In this document: positions 34,690 to 42,531 of the stretch, piece after piece | Layout of the letters: each line of letters starts with the position of its first letter | Numbering within the stretch: position 1 is the first letter of the stretch | Origin: Sediminivirga luteola | GTDB lineage: Bacteria > Actinomycetota > Actinomycetes > Actinomycetales > Brevibacteriaceae | Length of the DNA stretch: 64,000 nt | Direction of reading: 5' to 3' | Assembly: GCF_014639315.1 (NCBI RefSeq) | Contig: NZ_BMFY01000001.1 | Location: 310,001-374,000, forward strand | Position numbers and translations under genes: made by a program | Notes under the pieces: generated by a model | The model's input: only the letters and a program-made list of their open reading frames with translations | Told to the model about the DNA's origin: nothing | Database searches by the model: none

Positions 34690-34705
34690 GTGACCAAATA
34701 GTCAC
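34690..34705 (-). promoter_or_regulatory. Putative ArsR operator
   Basis: GTGAC-CAAATA-GTCAC, a perfect five-base inverted repeat with an A/T-rich centre, lies directly upstream of the -10 box of the ArsR gene. Its position would let a bound repressor block transcription. Confidence 0.55.
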
Positions 34706-34926
34706 GTGTCAATGGACGTAGTGGTCCGGTGCCGCGGTCGGCTGTGGACATCGGGGCAGGCGCGGGAACCTGTGCACGCCAAGGATGTGACGATGCTGCC
34801 GTGGTCGTCCGGGGCGGAGCGCGCCCGTCTGACCCCGCCGTGAACCCTGTGCCGCTGCGTGAAAATCTGCGCATTCACCGGTGCGGGCTCCCCGGTTCGC
34901 GGGCCCGGATTCGGTAGTGTCGCAGT

Positions 34927-37900
34927 GTGTATCCGCAAGGAGAGGTACTCGATGCAGTGAGCGCACAGAACTCGGACGCTTCCGGTACTCCCGCCGGGGT
35001 GGCAGAGGTCCTCGCAGCCTGGAAGGAACGGGCGGCGGCCATCGGCGGGCGCGACACCATGCTCAATTTCCGTGAGACGCATGACGGAAGCATCGATCTG
35101 TCCGGCGCCCACCCCTCCGGTCTGGCGCAGCTGCTGGCCGGACGCGCCACCCGCCTGTCCAGCCTGGTCCGCGACCACGAAGCCCTCGCGGAGGCGCGCC
35201 GCCGGGCCCGGGCGATCCAGTCCAAGGCCGAGCAGCTCATCGCCGAGCGTGCCCTGGACGCCGCCCATCTGGCGATCGGCATCGCCTCCTGGTCCCAGCC
35301 CGAGCAGGAACGCGGCGGAGACCTCTCCGCGCCCGTGCTGCTGCGCCGTGTGGCGCTGGTGCCACGCGGACAGCGCGGCGACGACTTCGAACTCAAACTC
35401 GCCGACGAGGTGGTCGTCAACCCGGCCCTGGTGCGGCACCTCTCCAGCCAGCACGGCATCGAGGTGCCCGTGCGGGAATGGACGGAACTGGCCCGCGCCC
35501 GGCAGGGCTTCGACCCCAACCCCGTCTTCGACCGGCTGCGGGCCCTGACCAAGCCGGTGCCGGGCTTCCTGGTGCTGCCGCGACTGGTCGTGTCCACCTT
35601 CGCGGACCTGCGCGGCCCGATGCTCCAGGACCCCGTTCCCCTGGAACACCCCATCATCGCCGGCCTGGCCGGCGATGAGCAGGCGCGGGCACGCTACTAC
35701 AGCGACGAAGTCGAGCCCTCGTCCCAGGGCCGCCGGGCATGGCAGCCGCTGGACTACCGGCCCACCGGTGCCGGCAGCGTCGCGTTGAGCACCGCGCTCG
35801 CGGCCGGGGACGAGGACCCCGAGGCGGGCTTCGCGGACGACTTCGCCGCCGCGGCCGCGGTCCCCGCGCCCCGTCCGCTGCAGGACCGTGACCCCCGGGA
35901 AGAACTCCTCGTGGTGGACGTCGATGGCGATCAGCAGCACGTGATCGACCGCGCCCGCCAGGGCGAGTCGATGGTCGTGGACACCCCGCCGGGCACCGGC
36001 GCCACCCAACTGGCCGTGGCTGCCACGGCAGCCCTGGCCCACGACGGCAACCGGGTGCTCTTCCTGGCGCAGGACTCCGACGCCCTGGACGCCTACGCCG
36101 CACGCCTGGCAGAGGCCGGTCTGGAGGACTTCGCCCTGGACTCCCGGCTGACCCGGGCCCAGCTGCGCCGGCGTCTGATCTCCAGGATCGCCGTCAACGA
36201 GCGGACCGAGTGGCCGGACGTCGAACGGCTCGCCGAACGGCACGGCCAGCTGCGCGCCGAACTCGCCTCCCACGCCGATGCCCTGCACCGCGTCTGGGAC
36301 CCCTGGGGCGTGTCCGTCTTCGACACCATGCAGCACCTGGCCCGGCTCACCAGCGTCCAGCCCAGCCCGGAGACTTCCGTGCGGCTCTCGGAGGAGCTGC
36401 TCACCAAGACCAAGGAGGAACTCCAGGAGCTCAAGGCGGATCTGCTGGAGTTCTCTCGGCTCGGCGCCTTCACGATGGACTCCTCCGACACCGTCTGGTT
36501 CGGTGCCCGGATCTCCACCGCCGAGGAGGCCGAGGACGCCTCCCGCACCGCGCGGGAAGCCGCCGCGGACTACTTGCCGCCGCTGATGGAGACGATGCCG
36601 GGGCTGCTGCGCGAGGCCGGGTTCGGGCCCGCCCGCACCGTGGCCGAATGGGGCACCGCGCTGGAGACCCTGATGCGGATCCGGCGGAGCCTGGACAGCT
36701 TCTCCTCCGAGGTCTACGAGCACTCCCTGGACGACCTCATCCACGCCACCGCGAACCCGCGTGAACGCGCCGAGTCCGGCGTGGAGATGAAACGCTCGGA
36801 ACGCTCCCGGCTGAAGAAGGTCGCACGCGAGTACGTCCGGCCCGGAGCGCATGTGCCGGAGCTGCACGAGGCGCTGGTGCAGGTCAAGAAGGAGAAGACC
36901 GCCTGGCTCGCCCTGGCGGAGAAGCCGGGTGTGCCACGGTTGCCGAAGGGGCTGGCCGAGGCGCACGCGCGGTACACCGCCCTGGCGGCCAAGCTCAATC
37001 GCCTGGAGCCGGTGCTGGAGACCACCCCCGACGGCGGCGATCTGGCCCATATGCAGGTCGAGGAGCTCCAAGCCCGCCTGCAGGCCCTCGGCGAGGAGCA
37101 GGGGGCGCTCGACGAATTGCCCGCCCGGTTCGAGCTCGATCGCAGACTGCGCGGCGCGGGACTGTCCGAGCTGATGGAGGACCTGCGGGAACGGCGCGTG
37201 CCGCACGAACTGGTCGCCGACGAGTTCGATCTGGCCTGGTGGGCCTCCGTGCTGCAGGCGATGGCGCGCAGCGACTCCGCCGTCGGCGGTCACGACGGGG
37301 ACCACATGCACAAGATCGCCGGCGAGTTCCGCCTGGCCGACGCCGCCGTCATCGAGCAGGGGCACAACCGGCTGCTCTGGCGCCTGTCCCGCATGTGGCG
37401 CGAGGTCATCGCCACCCGCCCGGATCAGGCGAAGCGGCTCAAGGCGGCGCTGCTGTCCGGCGACCCGGACTTGCGCGAACTCGTTGCCGAGGCACCCGAG
37501 GTGACCGGTGTGCTGGCGCCGGTGTGGATGATGAGCCCGCTGCACGTGGCGGCCCAGCTGCCGCCCGGACCGTTCTTCGACACCGTCATCGTCGCCGATG
37601 CCGGGCGGATCTCGGTGGCCGAGGCGCTGCCGGCGCTGGCCCGCGCCCGGCAGGTCATCGCGCTCGGCGACGACCGGCTGCTGGGACCGGGGGAGTTCCG
37701 GGTCGGTGCCGAGCGGCGCCGTGACTACTTCGCCGAAGCGCCGCCGACGACCGAGCCGAGCCTCTACGGCGAGCTCTCGGAGTTCCTGCCCACCCGGCGG
37801 CTCCGGACCAGCTACCGCGTCTCCCCGCCGGGCCTGGTGGACTTCGCCAACCGGCACTTCTACGACAGCCAGATCGCGACGCTGCCCTACGCCTTCACCG

Positions 37901-39159
37901 GCGACGGCAGCGGCCTGGAGTTCTCCTATGTGGCGGAGGGCATCGGCGTCCCGGGCACCTCGACCGGTCAGGTGGAGAGCCCGGAGGCGGAAGTGGACCG
38001 GGTGGTGCAGCTGGTCATGCGCCACGCACGCCAGAACACCCGCCAGTCCCTGGCGGTCATCACCGTCTCCCAGGCCCACGCGCAGCGGATCGCCGTGGCC
38101 ATCCGCAACGCGATCCGCGACTACCCGTATGTGGCCTCGTTCTTCACCGCGGGCCGCAAGGAGCCCTTCGTCGTGACGCACTGCGAGCGGATCCACGGCA
38201 TGGCGCGCGATGCGGTGATCTTCTCGCTCGGCTACGGCCGCACCCGGCACGGCCGGGTGATCCACAAGCTCGGGCCGCTCTCCCAGCCCGGCAGCGAGCG
38301 CTATCTGGCCGCCGCGATCACCAGGGCGCGCCGCAAGCTCACGGTGGTCTCCAGCATCGACCCCGACGATCTGGACATCAGCCGGCTCAGCCACGGCGCC
38401 GCGCTGCTGCCGGCGATCCTCAAAGAGGCCGCCGCGGGCGGGATCACCGCCGAGCCCGCCCAGCCGGGCGATCCACGCGACCCGCTGCTGTACGACATCG
38501 CCGAGCGGCTGCTGCGCAAGGGCGTCGTGGCCCAGGAGAACTACGCCGGCATCGACCTGGCGGTGGCGAACTCGCTCGGCGAGGAGCACGGGATGATCGT
38601 CGCGGTGGAGAGCGACGGCCTGAACTACGTCAGCATCGGGAGCGTCCGCGAGCGGGAACGCCGCCGGCCCGAGCAACTGGCCCGGCGCGGGTGGCGGCAT
38701 GTGCGGGTATGGAGCACGGACGCGTTCGTCGAACCCCAGGCGGAGGCGGACCGGATCTTCTCGGTCTGGCGTGAGACGGTCGAGGAACTCTCGCCCAAGG
38801 CGGTGCTCGATGCCTCCCGTACGGCCGCGCAGGTCCTCAACCGCCGCGGCACCCGGCCCCGCATGAGGGTGGGCATCCCCATCCACAAGTGCGATCCGGC
38901 CGATGTCGATGCGATGGTCGACTGGATCCAGTCCGACGATGTCGTCCGTGACGACGAGGAACTGCGCGAGCAGCTCCGACAGGCCCTGGCGCAGAAGGCC
39001 CGCACCCCGGTGGTGGAGCACGCCCTGGACGAGGCCGTGCGCCGGTACCGGCGTCGTGCCGCCGGCCTGGAGCCGGAAACCCCCGGGACCGCGGACGCCC
39101 AGGCGGGCAGCCATGCCGGGCACGCCGATGCGGGCGGACGCGGTGACGGGGACGCCTGA
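34927..39159 (+). CDS. Large superfamily 1 helicase-like protein with C-terminal REase-fold nuclease domain
   Basis: A 1,410-residue protein. SF1 (Upf1/Dna2-like) features are recognisable: a TPPGTGATQ loop (353-361), VADAGR (889-894), ALGDDRLLGPG, LRTSYRVSPPGLVDFANRHFY, HCERIHGMARDAVIFSL, and AAAITRARRKLTVVSS. The Walker A lysine is replaced by Ala359, Walker B reads D891-A-G, and motif III lacks its Gln, so ATP hydrolysis is doubtful. Residues about 380-850 are helical. At about 1190-1285 an REase-fold domain of the Vsr/DUF559 type (REase_MTES_1575-like) keeps D1210 (GIDLAVA) and E1228-S-D1230, then RRRPEQLARRGW and VRVWSTD. The GTG start at 34927 has TAGTGT six bases upstream; GTG 34957 is possible. 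A role in defence or nucleic-acid processing is inference. Confidence 0.88.
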   Translation: MYPQGEVLDAVSAQNSDASGTPAGVAEVLAAWKERAAAIGGRDTMLNFRETHDGSIDLSGAHPSGLAQLLAGRATRLSSLVRDHEALAEARRRARAIQSKAEQLIAERALDAAHLAIGIASWSQPEQERGGDLSAPVLLRRVALVPRGQRGDDFELKLADEVVVNPALVRHLSSQHGIEVPVREWTELARARQGFDPNPVFDRLRALTKPVPGFLVLPRLVVSTFADLRGPMLQDPVPLEHPIIAGLAGDEQARARYYSDEVEPSSQGRRAWQPLDYRPTGAGSVALSTALAAGDEDPEAGFADDFAAAAAVPAPRPLQDRDPREELLVVDVDGDQQHVIDRARQGESMVVDTPPGTGATQLAVAATAALAHDGNRVLFLAQDSDALDAYAARLAEAGLEDFALDSRLTRAQLRRRLISRIAVNERTEWPDVERLAERHGQLRAELASHADALHRVWDPWGVSVFDTMQHLARLTSVQPSPETSVRLSEELLTKTKEELQELKADLLEFSRLGAFTMDSSDTVWFGARISTAEEAEDASRTAREAAADYLPPLMETMPGLLREAGFGPARTVAEWGTALETLMRIRRSLDSFSSEVYEHSLDDLIHATANPRERAESGVEMKRSERSRLKKVAREYVRPGAHVPELHEALVQVKKEKTAWLALAEKPGVPRLPKGLAEAHARYTALAAKLNRLEPVLETTPDGGDLAHMQVEELQARLQALGEEQGALDELPARFELDRRLRGAGLSELMEDLRERRVPHELVADEFDLAWWASVLQAMARSDSAVGGHDGDHMHKIAGEFRLADAAVIEQGHNRLLWRLSRMWREVIATRPDQAKRLKAALLSGDPDLRELVAEAPEVTGVLAPVWMMSPLHVAAQLPPGPFFDTVIVADAGRISVAEALPALARARQVIALGDDRLLGPGEFRVGAERRRDYFAEAPPTTEPSLYGELSEFLPTRRLRTSYRVSPPGLVDFANRHFYDSQIATLPYAFTGDGSGLEFSYVAEGIGVPGTSTGQVESPEAEVDRVVQLVMRHARQNTRQSLAVITVSQAHAQRIAVAIRNAIRDYPYVASFFTAGRKEPFVVTHCERIHGMARDAVIFSLGYGRTRHGRVIHKLGPLSQPGSERYLAAAITRARRKLTVVSSIDPDDLDISRLSHGAALLPAILKEAAAGGITAEPAQPGDPRDPLLYDIAERLLRKGVVAQENYAGIDLAVANSLGEEHGMIVAVESDGLNYVSIGSVRERERRRPEQLARRGWRHVRVWSTDAFVEPQAEADRIFSVWRETVEELSPKAVLDASRTAAQVLNRRGTRPRMRVGIPIHKCDPADVDAMVDWIQSDDVVRDDEELREQLRQALAQKARTPVVEHALDEAVRRYRRRAAGLEPETPGTADAQAGSHAGHADAGGRGDGDA

Positions 39160-39379
39160 GCCGGACCCCGCGCACCGGTCCGAGCCGGAGTCCGCCGGGC
39201 AGGAGGCCGCCGGGACAGGGAACAGCGTCGGGAGCCACGACCCGGAGGCGGCACGCGCCGCCGCCCGCGCGAGGGAGGCCTATCGCAGGCTGCTGGCGAA
39301 CCGCTCTCAGGACGCCGGTGACGGCGAAGACGACGGCGATGACGAGCGGATCATGCGCGAACGCCCGCCCCACTGGTGA
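39128..39379 (+). CDS. Small acidic protein ending in RPPHW
   Basis: An 83-residue protein whose start overlaps the end of the helicase-like gene by 32 bases (a GTG at 39143 is the alternative). The N-terminal half is Pro/Glu/Ser-rich and disordered. A helix EAARAAARAREAYRRLLANR follows, then an acidic stretch and the C-terminal motif ERIMRERPPHW, which I recall from small actinobacterial proteins. Overlap suggests that it works with, or is made with, the helicase-like protein. Confidence 0.6.
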   Translation: MRADAVTGTPEPDPAHRSEPESAGQEAAGTGNSVGSHDPEAARAAARAREAYRRLLANRSQDAGDGEDDGDDERIMRERPPHW

Positions 39380-39624: not shown

Positions 39625-40095
39625 TCAGTGGCGAGGTGCGCCGCCGGCCTCGGTGCCGCCCTGGCCGTCTACGGTGCCGGTCACGCCCGGGGTGCCGGGT
39701 GTCCCGGCCTGGCCGGCGTTCTGGGCCTGCAGCAGATCCCGGATCTCGGTGAGCAGTTCCTCCATGGTCGGAGGGGTCTCATCGGTCTTGCCACGCAGAT
39801 CGTTGAGCTTGTTCATCGGGGCGATGATGATGAAGTAGACCACCCCGGCAACGATCAGGAAGTTGATCAGCGCGGTGATGACGGCGCCCACATCCACGGT
39901 GGTGGCCTCAAGCCCGGGCCTGATCGTCCACTGCAGCGCCGGCGTGTCAGGTGATCCGACGGCCGCGATGAGCGGATTGATCACCCGGTCGGAGATGGCG
40001 GTGACGACATTGGTGAAAGCCGCGCCCACGATCACCGCGGTGGCCAGCTCGATCACATTGCCGCGGAGAATGAAGTCTCTGAATCCACTCAGCAT
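39625..40095 (-). CDS. mscL: Large-conductance mechanosensitive channel
   Basis: A 156-residue channel protein. It begins MLSGFRDFILRGNVIELATAVIVGAAF, typical of MscL, with TM1 at about 15-43, a periplasmic loop, TM2 at about 70-93 and the cytoplasmic helix EELLTEIRDLLQAQ (about 112-125). The homopentamer opens on membrane stretch and releases solutes during hypo-osmotic shock. The C-terminal tail (127-156) is Gly/Thr-rich and longer than in E. coli. AAGGAG precedes the ATG. It is also linked to mprAB-pepD and galU genes in mycobacteria. Confidence 0.96.
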   Translation of the reverse strand: MLSGFRDFILRGNVIELATAVIVGAAFTNVVTAISDRVINPLIAAVGSPDTPALQWTIRPGLEATTVDVGAVITALINFLIVAGVVYFIIIAPMNKLNDLRGKTDETPPTMEELLTEIRDLLQAQNAGQAGTPGTPGVTGTVDGQGGTEAGGAPRH

Positions 40096-40162: not shown

Positions 40163-40849
40163 TCAGGGGCCGGACAGCATCTCTCCGGTGTGGCTTCCGT
40201 CTCCGATGAGTGCGAAACTCAGCGGAGAACCGCTCGCGGAGGCCAGGACGGACGCCTCTTCCGGACTGACCGCGACGGTCACGACGGTGCCGCCGCCGGC
40301 AGCGAGAGCGGCCACGTCCTCCCGTGAGACGGAGGCCACCCAGGCGCTCTCCAGCAGCAGCTCGGCGTCTCCGCCGAGTCCTTCCAGGGGTGCGGCGAAC
40401 ACCCGGATCCTGCTGCCCGGCTGTAGCAGCACGGACGCGGACGGATCCGCGAAGCGCAGCGGCATCAGCATGCTGCCCTCGGCCCCGCCCGAGGAGGCGG
40501 CTCCGAGCAAGGCCGCGGCCGTGAGCGGCGCGCCGGCATTCATCGGCGCCGCGAGCACGCGGCCGACCGCGACGTCGGCATCTTCGACCGCGCCCGCCGG
40601 AACAAGGCCCGGTGGGTACTCGGCCATGGCAAGGTCGCCGGCCCGGAGCTCAGCTCCCGGTGGCAGGTCCCGGGCGGCGACGGCGATGGCGACGGTGCCG
40701 CCGCCGGGCACCAGGGCATGGGCCAGCAGCACGGTTGCCAGGGCCAGCAGCGCCGCGGCGGCAGGACGCCGCAGACGAGGCGGCACGGCCGGGAAGCGCG
40801 ATCTGAGTCGGCCGGCGAGGCCGCCGAGAGCGGAGAGCAGAGAGGACAT
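40163..40849 (-). CDS. SAF-domain membrane protein
   Basis: A 228-residue protein. A membrane helix at about 33-52 (PAAAALLALATVLLAHAL) is followed by an SAF domain (about 60-125) starting AARDLPPGAELRAGDLAMAEYPPGLVPAGA. SAF domains occur in CpaB/FlgA-type pilus and flagellar assembly proteins and in sugar-acid enzymes; here no pilus genes are nearby. A homologue in this place, between mscL and the FmdB-like gene, is common in actinobacteria. The ATG at 40849 is chosen because the membrane segment follows it; upstream frame is not protein-like. Function unknown. Confidence 0.82.
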   Translation of the reverse strand: MSSLLSALGGLAGRLRSRFPAVPPRLRRPAAAALLALATVLLAHALVPGGGTVAIAVAARDLPPGAELRAGDLAMAEYPPGLVPAGAVEDADVAVGRVLAAPMNAGAPLTAAALLGAASSGGAEGSMLMPLRFADPSASVLLQPGSRIRVFAAPLEGLGGDAELLLESAWVASVSREDVAALAAGGGTVVTVAVSPEEASVLASASGSPLSFALIGDGSHTGEMLSGP

Positions 40850-41140
40850 GCCCGCCACAGTAGGGGCCACACCGGCCGGTACGGCCGGAACCATCGGCGG
40901 CTGTGGACGGCACCTGAAGCGGGCACCACCCTGTGACCGCGAGACGCATCGGTCTGTGACCTTAGGTGTTGCAGCTGCCTTGGTCCGGGCGCTCTGTGCC
41001 TGGCAGCCCAGGCGCCGCCGGTTTGCACCCGCAACCGCAGCCGATGCAGGCCCGCTTGTGCCTGGCGGCCCCATGTGCGACCGGGCCACCGGCGGGGTCA
41101 TTCCTCTGGCACTGCGGATGGTGCAGACGGCCGGGGCCGC

Positions 41141-41491
41141 TCAGCTGGCGGCGGCGTCCGAGGACGTGGAGGAGGACGCCGGTGCGCTGCTGGCCGTAGC
41201 TGCGCTGGAGGAGGACTCCTTCGATGAGGAGCTCTTCGGGGCGGAGTCCTTCGAGCCGGAGCCGGCAGGGTCGCTCGACGAGGCCCCCGAGGGCACGCTG
41301 GACGAAGAGCCGGAATCGCGCGAGTCGGTGCGGTAGAAACCGGACCCCTTGAACACCACGCCCACGCTGCCGAAGTTCTTGCGCAGCCGCCCGCCGCATT
41401 CCGGGCAGGCGGTGAGCGCCTCATCGCTGAAGCTCTGGCGGATGTCGAAAGCGTGATCGCACTCGGTGCAACGGTACGAGTACGTGGGCAC
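41141..41491 (-). CDS. FmdB-family zinc-ribbon protein
   Basis: A 116-residue protein. Residues 1-50 are a zinc ribbon with two CxxC pairs (TECDHAFD with Cys9/Cys12 and ACPECGG), then GVVFKGSGFYRTD. The remaining 60 residues are a Ser/Ala-rich disordered tail. The same arrangement is seen in Rv0991c, reported in mycobacteria to act as a redox-regulated chaperone; the equivalence is by position and motif only. GAGGAG precedes the GTG start. The 290 bases between this gene and the SAF-domain gene hold no gene I can support. Confidence 0.9.
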   Translation of the reverse strand: MPTYSYRCTECDHAFDIRQSFSDEALTACPECGGRLRKNFGSVGVVFKGSGFYRTDSRDSGSSSSVPSGASSSDPAGSGSKDSAPKSSSSKESSSSAATASSAPASSSTSSDAAAS

Positions 41492-41729
41492 GGCGGTCTC
41501 CTCGGGACTAAAGGGCTAGGGCACCGCACGCCTGGCATGCGGGGCGGGTGTCATTCTTCGGCGCTTGCCGGCCGGCGGATCGCCGGACGCGGCGTACATG
41601 CGCCGCCGCTGATTATAACCGTGCCGGCCGGCTGCGCCGCCATCGCCCACTGCCGGAGGAATGACCCCGCCTCGGCTGCGGTTGCGGCGGGTGCGGACCG
41701 GCCGGGCCCGCCGCATCGGCTGGGGCGAT

Positions 41730-42500
41730 TCAGATGCAACGCAGACCTGCCGGAGTGGCGACGGCGTGGACGCGCAGATCGTGTCCGGCGGCGGGGATGC
41801 TGTCCGCCGGGAGGACCTCTTCCTCATAGACCACCCCGGCCAGCAACGGGCGTCCGGGGTGCCCGCCATGCGCCCAGCGCGCGCGATCCGGCGCAGTGGC
41901 CTTCTGGTCGGGTCCGCCGCCGATGCCCGTGGCCTCGTCCGCCGCCTCAGCCGCCGGGCGTGCAGAAGCCGTCACATCCGTCGCCGCGGCGCCGGGACCT
42001 CCCGCGCCGGCTGCAGCGGGCGGGATCGCCGGTGCTTCCCCCTGCGGGCCGAAACTGCGGTCGTAGTAGCCGCCGCCCTGCCCGAGCCGGAGCCCGCCGG
42101 AACTGAGCGCCAGCGCCGGGATCAGGATCACATCGACGGTATGCAGCAGATCCTGGCTGTTCAACGACGCCTCGGCCGGCTCGGCGATGCCGAACGAGCC
42201 CGTGCCCGGCGCCAGCAGGTCCAGCTCGTCTGGATCCCAGCGGCCCCATCGCAGCGCGTTCCTTCCCCGCGCCACCGGGAGCCAGACCGGGACGCCCGCC
42301 CGGTGCGCGGCCTGCAGCAGCGGGACGATGTCCGGTTCGTGCGGCATCGGCGCATATGCCGCCAGTCCCCGGCACGGCAGCAGGGAAGCCAGCACGCCGG
42401 CAAGCCGGCTTGCGCGTTCCCGGCGGGTCTCGACGTCCAGCAGGCGCCTGTCCGCGCGGATGCGCGAGCGCAGGGCCGCTTTGCCGTCCAGTGAGGTCAT
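41730..42500 (-). CDS. 5-formyltetrahydrofolate cyclo-ligase
   Basis: A 256-residue enzyme that turns 5-formyl-THF into 5,10-methenyl-THF with ATP. The N-terminal KAALRSRIRADRR helix and the LRLGQGGGYYDR ATP-binding motif (about 137-148) are clear, and the C-terminal ADSIPAAGHDLRVHAVAT is typical. About 55 extra Ala/Gly/Pro-rich residues (about 150-205) lie between the ATP loop and the final strand; relatives are near 190-200 residues. TAGACT lies six bases before the ATG. It is divergent from galU with only 37 bases between start codons. The 238 bases downstream of it (41492-41729) show no gene. Confidence 0.9.
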   Translation of the reverse strand: MTSLDGKAALRSRIRADRRLLDVETRRERASRLAGVLASLLPCRGLAAYAPMPHEPDIVPLLQAAHRAGVPVWLPVARGRNALRWGRWDPDELDLLAPGTGSFGIAEPAEASLNSQDLLHTVDVILIPALALSSGGLRLGQGGGYYDRSFGPQGEAPAIPPAAAGAGGPGAAATDVTASARPAAEAADEATGIGGGPDQKATAPDRARWAHGGHPGRPLLAGVVYEEEVLPADSIPAAGHDLRVHAVATPAGLRCI

Positions 42501-42506
42501 GCCCGG

Positions 42507-42531
42507 AGTCTACTGCTACGCCCAGTAGAGT
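42507..42531. promoter_or_regulatory. Divergent pair of leaderless -10 boxes
   Basis: TAGACT (minus strand, 42507-42512) and TAGAGT (plus strand, 42526-42531) each end six bases before a start codon: 5-formyl-THF cyclo-ligase at 42500 and galU at 42538. The two transcription starts are about 37 bases apart, so the -35 region of each gene overlaps the coding start of the other. Confidence 0.75.

Follow-up and report, generated by a model that had tools for sequence, protein, structure and literature searches.

The window analysed here is a stretch of 64,000 nucleotides from Sediminivirga luteola (contig NZ_BMFY01000001.1, positions 310,001 to 374,000 of the forward strand). It contains a gene for a protein with the layout of a superfamily 1 (SF1) helicase joined to a nuclease domain, here called the pseudohelicase since its ATPase motifs are degenerate, and, overlapping the 3' end of that gene, a small open reading frame (ORF) that ends in a PPHW tail. 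The coordinates of these and of the neighbouring genes are collected in Table 1.

Pfam finds DUF4011, AAA_11, AAA_12 and MTES_1575 in this order in the pseudohelicase. The scores exceed the cut-offs for DUF4011 (38.6 vs 22.2 bits), AAA_12 (28.4 vs 27 bits) and MTES_1575 (47.5 vs 38.2 bits), while AAA_11, aligned to residues 333-488, is below threshold with 18.8 bits against 27. The helicase-nuclease layout proposed by a first-pass annotation of the window, which was made from the letters alone, is borne out for the second helicase lobe and the nuclease domain, with DUF4011 added, and AAA_11 is its one part under the cut-off. There is no Pfam match in residues 1291-1410, and a DUF3320-like winged helix suspected by eye at residues ~1325-1385 was dropped for that reason. 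An antisense open frame of 1,473 residues (34702-39123, minus strand) covers nearly the whole gene. Frames resembling it match in 38 loci, and we read it as a shadow frame in GC-rich coding sequence rather than as a gene of its own.

Loss of the ATPase residues

The SF1 helicase motifs have well-known roles (Walker A and B, motif III, SYR and TRARR). An active enzyme is expected to have the Walker A Lys and the Walker B Asp-Glu pair, and the window protein has neither. Its Walker A context reads DTPPGTGATQ; in Walker B, Ala890 stands at the position of the Mg-binding Asp and Asp891 at that of the catalytic Glu; and motif III reads GDDRLLG, without Gln. SYR (R964) and TRARR (R1133, R1135) are retained. 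All of this agrees with the first-pass annotation, which had reported Ala359 in place of the Walker A Lys, a Walker B without Glu, a motif III without Gln and intact SYR and TRARR motifs.

Relatives were compared in an alignment of 107 rows (93 from the window's order, 5 outgroup, 9 ProA-like), 80 of which form the window's clade; the alignment is uncertain in the most degenerate families. Within the clade, Lys at position 359 occurs in 0 rows, Glu at 891 in one, and both Walker B acids together in none. The loss of Lys, which the first-pass annotation had wished to see followed in homologues, is therefore clade-wide, and a sequencing error at Ala359 is unlikely because the loss is common to the orthologues. 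Lys is kept in 9 of the 12 f5 and f16 rows, in 5/5 outgroups and in 9/9 ProA-like rows; in family f5, in most of f16 and in the outgroups it is accompanied by both Walker B acids. A substitute lysine near the P-loop, which would have spoken against a loss of ATPase function, was looked for in the alignment: no clade-specific Lys or Arg is found there, and a Lys or Arg at position 375 is common to both groups.

The loss happened more than once, because f16 has Lys-less members of its own (L081, L101, L105). By parsimony, the state of Lys changes at least 2 times on the gene tree, compared to 3 times on an RpoB tree (28 genomes of the order and 2 outgroup genomes); both trees were built quickly and carry no bootstrap values, and the composition of 41 gene-tree rows is unusual. 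One locus at a contig end (L097) was left out of the motif counts and the tree, and L120-L126 were left out of the tree. Families f2, f7, f14, f15 and f17 group with the other Lys-less families on the gene tree and with f5 and f16 on the RpoB tree. On the latter the families without Lys do not form a single clade, but an approximately unbiased (AU) test does not reject one (p 0.364). On either tree the loss of Lys is old and occurred at least twice, probably more often.

It could be argued that the protein is a non-canonical ATPase, which binds ATP and hydrolyses it slowly by means of the kept glycine, the motif III Asp and the motif VI arginine. Indeed, G356, D915 and R1135 are conserved in 75, 76 and 69 of the 80 clade rows, and PPGTGATQ is well conserved in the window's family. 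However, Lys is absent from all 80 rows, the Walker B acids never occur together, the motif V Glu is present in 7/80, Gln is not among the common residues of motif III, nothing specific to the clade replaces the lysine near the P-loop, and the loop itself has dissolved in other families of the clade. We thus consider slow hydrolysis unlikely.

The proposed tail-motif partner and the chromosomal neighbourhood

The partner ORF ends in ...DDERIMRERPPHW at 39379, with the tail RERPPHW, and all three of its candidate starts precede the helicase stop. Neither the small protein of the window (read from 39113) nor that of Actinomyces oris has a Pfam or NCBIfam match. To count as a tail, PPH[WFY] had to lie within 15 residues of a stop codon, on the strand of the gene, between -60 and +700 nucleotides around the helicase end. 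This was applied to 81 loci of the order, a non-random set picked from match tables to span the families and in part from close relatives, and to 14 outgroup or paralogue loci. A tail is found at 73 of the 81, in 13 cases fused in the helicase frame, and at 0/14 of the others; one of the 73 (L036) has masked letters immediately ahead of the motif. In the remaining sequence of the 95 loci (1.217 Mb in all, both strands) the pattern turned up four times.

Of the 73 tails, 63 have W as the aromatic residue, 6 have F and 4 have Y, and in 47 of them it is followed by no or one residue. Asp is found at position -8 in 48 tails, and Arg or Val at -1 in 57. In a DNA-pattern scan of 149 genomes of the order, PPHW-x-stop turned up 101 times, spread over 76 genomes; 33 of the 38 hits that were compared with helicase places sit 105-715 nucleotides 3' of the helicase, the same strand being required. 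The pattern is noisy by itself, because 29 of 148 genomes of the phylum also match, as do some genomes with the reversed control. All 12 loci of f5 and f16, the families that include the Lys-bearing proteins of the order, have the tail, so that it probably arose before Lys was lost. Family f19 (L086, L087, L088, L112) could serve as a natural test case for the need that the tail fulfils: none of its four loci has a PPH[WFY] tail, and three also lack the gene linkage described next.

Downstream of the partner ORF the window carries, on the opposite strand, mscL, a SAF-domain gene and a zinc-ribbon gene whose product we take to be FmdB. At 63 of the 81 loci of the order, mscL or fmdB is found no more than 5 kb downstream, compared to 0/14 outgroup or paralogue loci, and some of the misses are contig ends (L074, L092, L097). 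A. oris has the order DNA helicase, hypothetical protein ending in RDVPPHWG, mscL and SAF, without fmdB. A 415-kb A. oris record labelled as a plasmid (L127, NZ_CP116225.1 372638-392729) has this core neighbourhood and may be a piece of chromosome. On the upstream side, the widest cluster of open frames spans 7 family codes, and no order-wide partner was seen among these clusters, which were not broken down further.

The PPHW ORF might still be an independent gene that is close to the pseudohelicase by ancestral linkage and has no functional tie to it; mscL, SAF and fmdB are likewise linked, and they are not suspected partners. Yet the ORF is fused to the pseudohelicase at 13 of the 81 loci, its fused or separate state switches 9 times on the gene tree (14 fused, L002 included), and in the fused forms the tail remains at the free end. 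A neighbour with no functional tie is thus quite unlikely.

Table 1. Features of the pseudohelicase locus, in window coordinates
Feature	Position	Strand	Evidence
Pseudohelicase gene, 1,410 residues, GTG start, stop included	34927..39159	+	ORF call and relatives search
DUF4011 N-terminal domain, residues 41-172	35047..35442	+	Pfam 1.4e-9
Degenerate Walker A TPPGTGATQ, residues 353-361, Ala359 replacing Lys	35983..36009	+	orthologue alignment
Degenerate Walker B FDTVIVADAGR, residues 884-894	37576..37608	+	orthologue alignment
AAA_12, second helicase lobe, residues 955-1143, with SYR and TRARR	37789..38355	+	Pfam 1.4e-6
MTES_1575 (Vsr-type restriction endonuclease, REase) domain, residues 1199-1278	38521..38760	+	Pfam 2e-12
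Small partner ORF, 78 residues from GTG 39143; alternative starts ATG 39128 and ATG 39113	39143..39379	+	tail scan
C-terminal PPHW codons and stop, sole CCNCCNCAYTGGTRA match in the window's genome	39365..39379	+	pattern scan
MscL, convergent neighbour, linkage conserved	39628..40095	-	Pfam 1.8e-34
SAF-domain protein, linkage often conserved	40166..41101	-	Pfam 3e-13
FmdB-type zinc-ribbon protein, open frame, linkage conserved	41144..41515	-	Zn_ribbon_8 1.5e-14
5-formyltetrahydrofolate cyclo-ligase, open frame	41733..42509	-	Pfam 8.1e-26

Nuclease residues, distribution and selection

The first-pass annotation had suggested a nuclease with an intact motif, carried by an ATP-independent, helicase-derived scaffold. 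The pattern D1210, E1228 and D1230 is indeed complete in the window protein, and the scaffold half of the proposal holds as a probable one, as both Lys and the paired Walker B acids are missing from all 80 clade rows. An intact nuclease as the purpose of the protein is not supported in that form, since the D-E-D set is complete in just 19/80 clade rows (13 of the 20 rows of the window's family). D1230 is present in 79/80 rows, D1210 in 31 and E1228 in 26, and the complete set switches state 11 times on the gene tree. A His after the conserved Tyr is found in 3/5 outgroups and is absent from the window protein. D1210 and E1228 are thus patchy, and for the family overall the nuclease residues are dispensable.

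A search among relatives gave matches in 39/39 genomes, including the window's own. In the order, 198/198 sampled genomes from 70 genera match, 197 of them at E 4.8e-63 or better and one (G136, 580 contigs) weakly at 2.5e-4; these counts are of best matches, and the loci that were read number 81. The closest named relatives are Brevibacterium, placed by NCBI in the order Micrococcales; A. oris, in the NCBI order Actinomycetales, also has the gene, annotated as 'DNA helicase'. In a sample of 148 genomes from the phylum, 49 match at E 0.001, mostly with short AAA-type stretches or segments of longer ProA-like proteins. Outside the order (n=143) there are near-full-length copies in four genomes (G232, G280, G285, G294) and a divergent copy in G241. 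The gene tree (99 rows) tracks the family codes, with 25 changes compared to a minimum of 24. Open frames of 1,205 and 1,221 residues, both flanked by mscL and fmdB, are retained in G071 and G177, whose genomes measure 0.8 and 0.9 Mb. In the two genomes of this size (0.8-0.9 Mb; loci L095 and L096), the tail ORF has its PPHF 11 residues from the stop and lies with the pseudohelicase, mscL and fmdB in the same order.

A mobile defence gene would be expected to have a patchy distribution or a mobile context. What was found is a gene in every sampled genome of the order, with the mscL/fmdB neighbourhood at most of the loci. The only match among 50,697 phage records is distant and partial, covering 38% of the query at 24% identity, and 36 pattern stretches in viral contigs include none related to the pseudohelicase. 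On plasmids, 375 records match, 207 of them conjugative, all at less than 60% identity and one, from A. oris, with 80% coverage. The wider family is thus mobile, because its distant relatives sit on these records. Core status is not unique to the window's order, since one of the core flank genes described for Pseudomonas aeruginosa is a large DUF4011 gene (PMC10250203); the passages of that paper available to us mention neither ATPase loss nor a tail partner. Among the literature matches listed, as far as their text was available, no paper deals with this gene or with the PPHW tail.

These data bear on the possibility that the protein is a working anti-phage system, in which the helicase-like scaffold would bring its MTES_1575 nuclease, in active form, to foreign nucleic acid. 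PADLOC model PDC-S37, for which the tool has no cut-off, scores 492.6 bits (E 7.6e-148, best stretch 646-1328), and NCBIfam ProA (NF058533) scores 462.2 bits. The complete nuclease set in the window and in most rows of its family points the same way, as do the distant relatives on plasmids. However, ProA has an equivalog cut-off of 1500 bits, and Hhe (NF042953), at 266.7 bits, one of 2000; both are far from reached. The nuclease set is incomplete in most of the clade, the phage records hold a single partial match, and all sampled genomes of the order match, usually at one fixed locus, including two genomes below 1 Mb. The phage-defence framing of the first-pass annotation is therefore weakened by presence throughout the sampled order, agreement of the gene tree with the families, the conserved address and retention in the two small genomes, and we regard an anti-phage nuclease as rather improbable.

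The ratio of nonsynonymous to synonymous substitution rates (dN/dS) for the whole gene is 0.07-0.27 over ten close pairs (Nei-Gojobori; dS is near saturation in the pair L095/L096). Lys-bearing pairs (n=2) have values of 0.25 and 0.27, Lys-less pairs (n=8) of 0.07-0.24, and the REase domain has values of 0.02-0.04 in three pairs without E1228. The most conserved block of 20 residues in the clade, residues 61-80, is in DUF4011, outside the helicase motifs. Low dN/dS thus means that the sequence is kept although catalytic residues are lost. That the gene once served in defence and is now decaying, en route to loss, would fit with motif degeneration that differs between families, but it is very improbable, as Lys-less pairs are no more relaxed than Lys-bearing ones and the loci read have long open frames, also in genomes below 1 Mb.

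Interpretation and known relatives

The explanation that we favour, with a modest degree of confidence, is that the pseudohelicase is a vertically inherited, ATP-independent scaffold which works with its tail-motif partner in housekeeping rather than in phage defence. At the sequence level, it is supported by the loss of ATPase residues, the patchy nuclease, the order-wide presence, the conserved neighbourhood, purifying selection and the tail ORF with its repeated fusion or separation. The ancestor would have been an active helicase-nuclease with DUF4011, SF1 and MTES_1575 parts. Its descendant would be a core protein of the window's order that has no ATP turnover and probably binds nucleic acid, as its parent family suggests. 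The partner would be a small, probably largely disordered protein with a free C-terminal tail D-x-R-L-x-x-[DEQ]-[RV]-PPHW, which may dock on the pseudohelicase or recruit it to a third component. More tentatively, we propose that the two could form an order-defining core complex: a dead helicase-nuclease hub with a PPHW docking or recruitment tail, serving DNA or RNA maintenance without a described counterpart, in which the ATPase was lost several times, and independently, after the pairing.

Several observations weigh against the housekeeping scaffold. The window protein itself has the complete nuclease set, its best NCBIfam and PADLOC matches are phage-defence models, and more distant relatives are found on plasmids, many of them conjugative. 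The tail test failed at 8 of the 81 loci: L090, where the motif is 57 residues before the stop, L041 and L102 (both f3), all of f19 (four loci), and L097, which lies at the end of a contig. The linkage to mscL or fmdB is absent in 5/5 f11 loci and present in one of the four f19 loci. Two AlphaFold models, each built with four sequences, were too low in confidence for use, with a mean predicted local distance difference test (pLDDT) score of 40.2 for residues 312-1290 and 50.4 for the REase domain. A PDB search with the low-confidence REase model had a best E of 0.87; REase-type entries were near the top, none of them significant.

Compared to the view from the window, the clade-wide loss of Lys, the partial conservation of the nuclease residues in the family and the conserved 3' ORF are new. 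It is unusual for a gene this long (more than 1,000 codons) to be order-wide in the sample, to be kept in two genomes below 1 Mb and to have no published function that we found. If our interpretation is correct, this looks like the domestication of a family known from anti-phage defence, as a housekeeping scaffold for which both enzymatic sites are dispensable, and annotation as 'DNA helicase' or defence protein may mislead in the window's order. The tail offers a handle: a short peptide for pull-down, and natural fused and split versions to compare.

The acidic C-terminal tail of single-stranded DNA-binding protein (SSB) is also a short conserved free C-terminus on an otherwise variable protein. 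The PPHW tail has different letters, so this is an analogy only, and there is no evidence of a shared receptor. For a helicase without ATPase, PriA, which belongs to a different helicase family from the window protein, is instructive. In Deinococcus radiodurans it is a pseudohelicase that has lost its ATPase and retains DNA binding and a physical partner (PMC4504706). It is a tested precedent, by analogy, for a group-wide loss, as the Walker A Lys and the Walker B match are missing throughout the group, as in the window protein; its role is known, and the passages of the paper at hand mention no nuclease domain or tail partner (PMC4504706).

Upf1/NAM7-type SF1 helicases match both lobes weakly (E 0.009-0.03), and the matched NAM7 chains keep the P-loop Lys. 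Closer relatives are the large DUF4011 proteins of ProA, Hhe and PDC-S37, which share DUF4011, the SF1 lobes and MTES_1575 with the window protein in the same order, AAA_11 being below its cut-off in the latter. In a paper on the HEPN family, MTES_1575 is listed with an SF-I helicase, a Vsr REase and two winged helix-turn-helix domains (PMC3710099). Eight ProA/MTES_1575-like proteins (L118-L125) have open frames of 1,690-2,167 residues and keep GKS and DEASQ, whereas the window protein is shorter and without the Lys, belongs to the core genes of its order and has a tail ORF beside it. Six of these eight (L120-L125) carry Leu or Ile at the position of the REase Glu.

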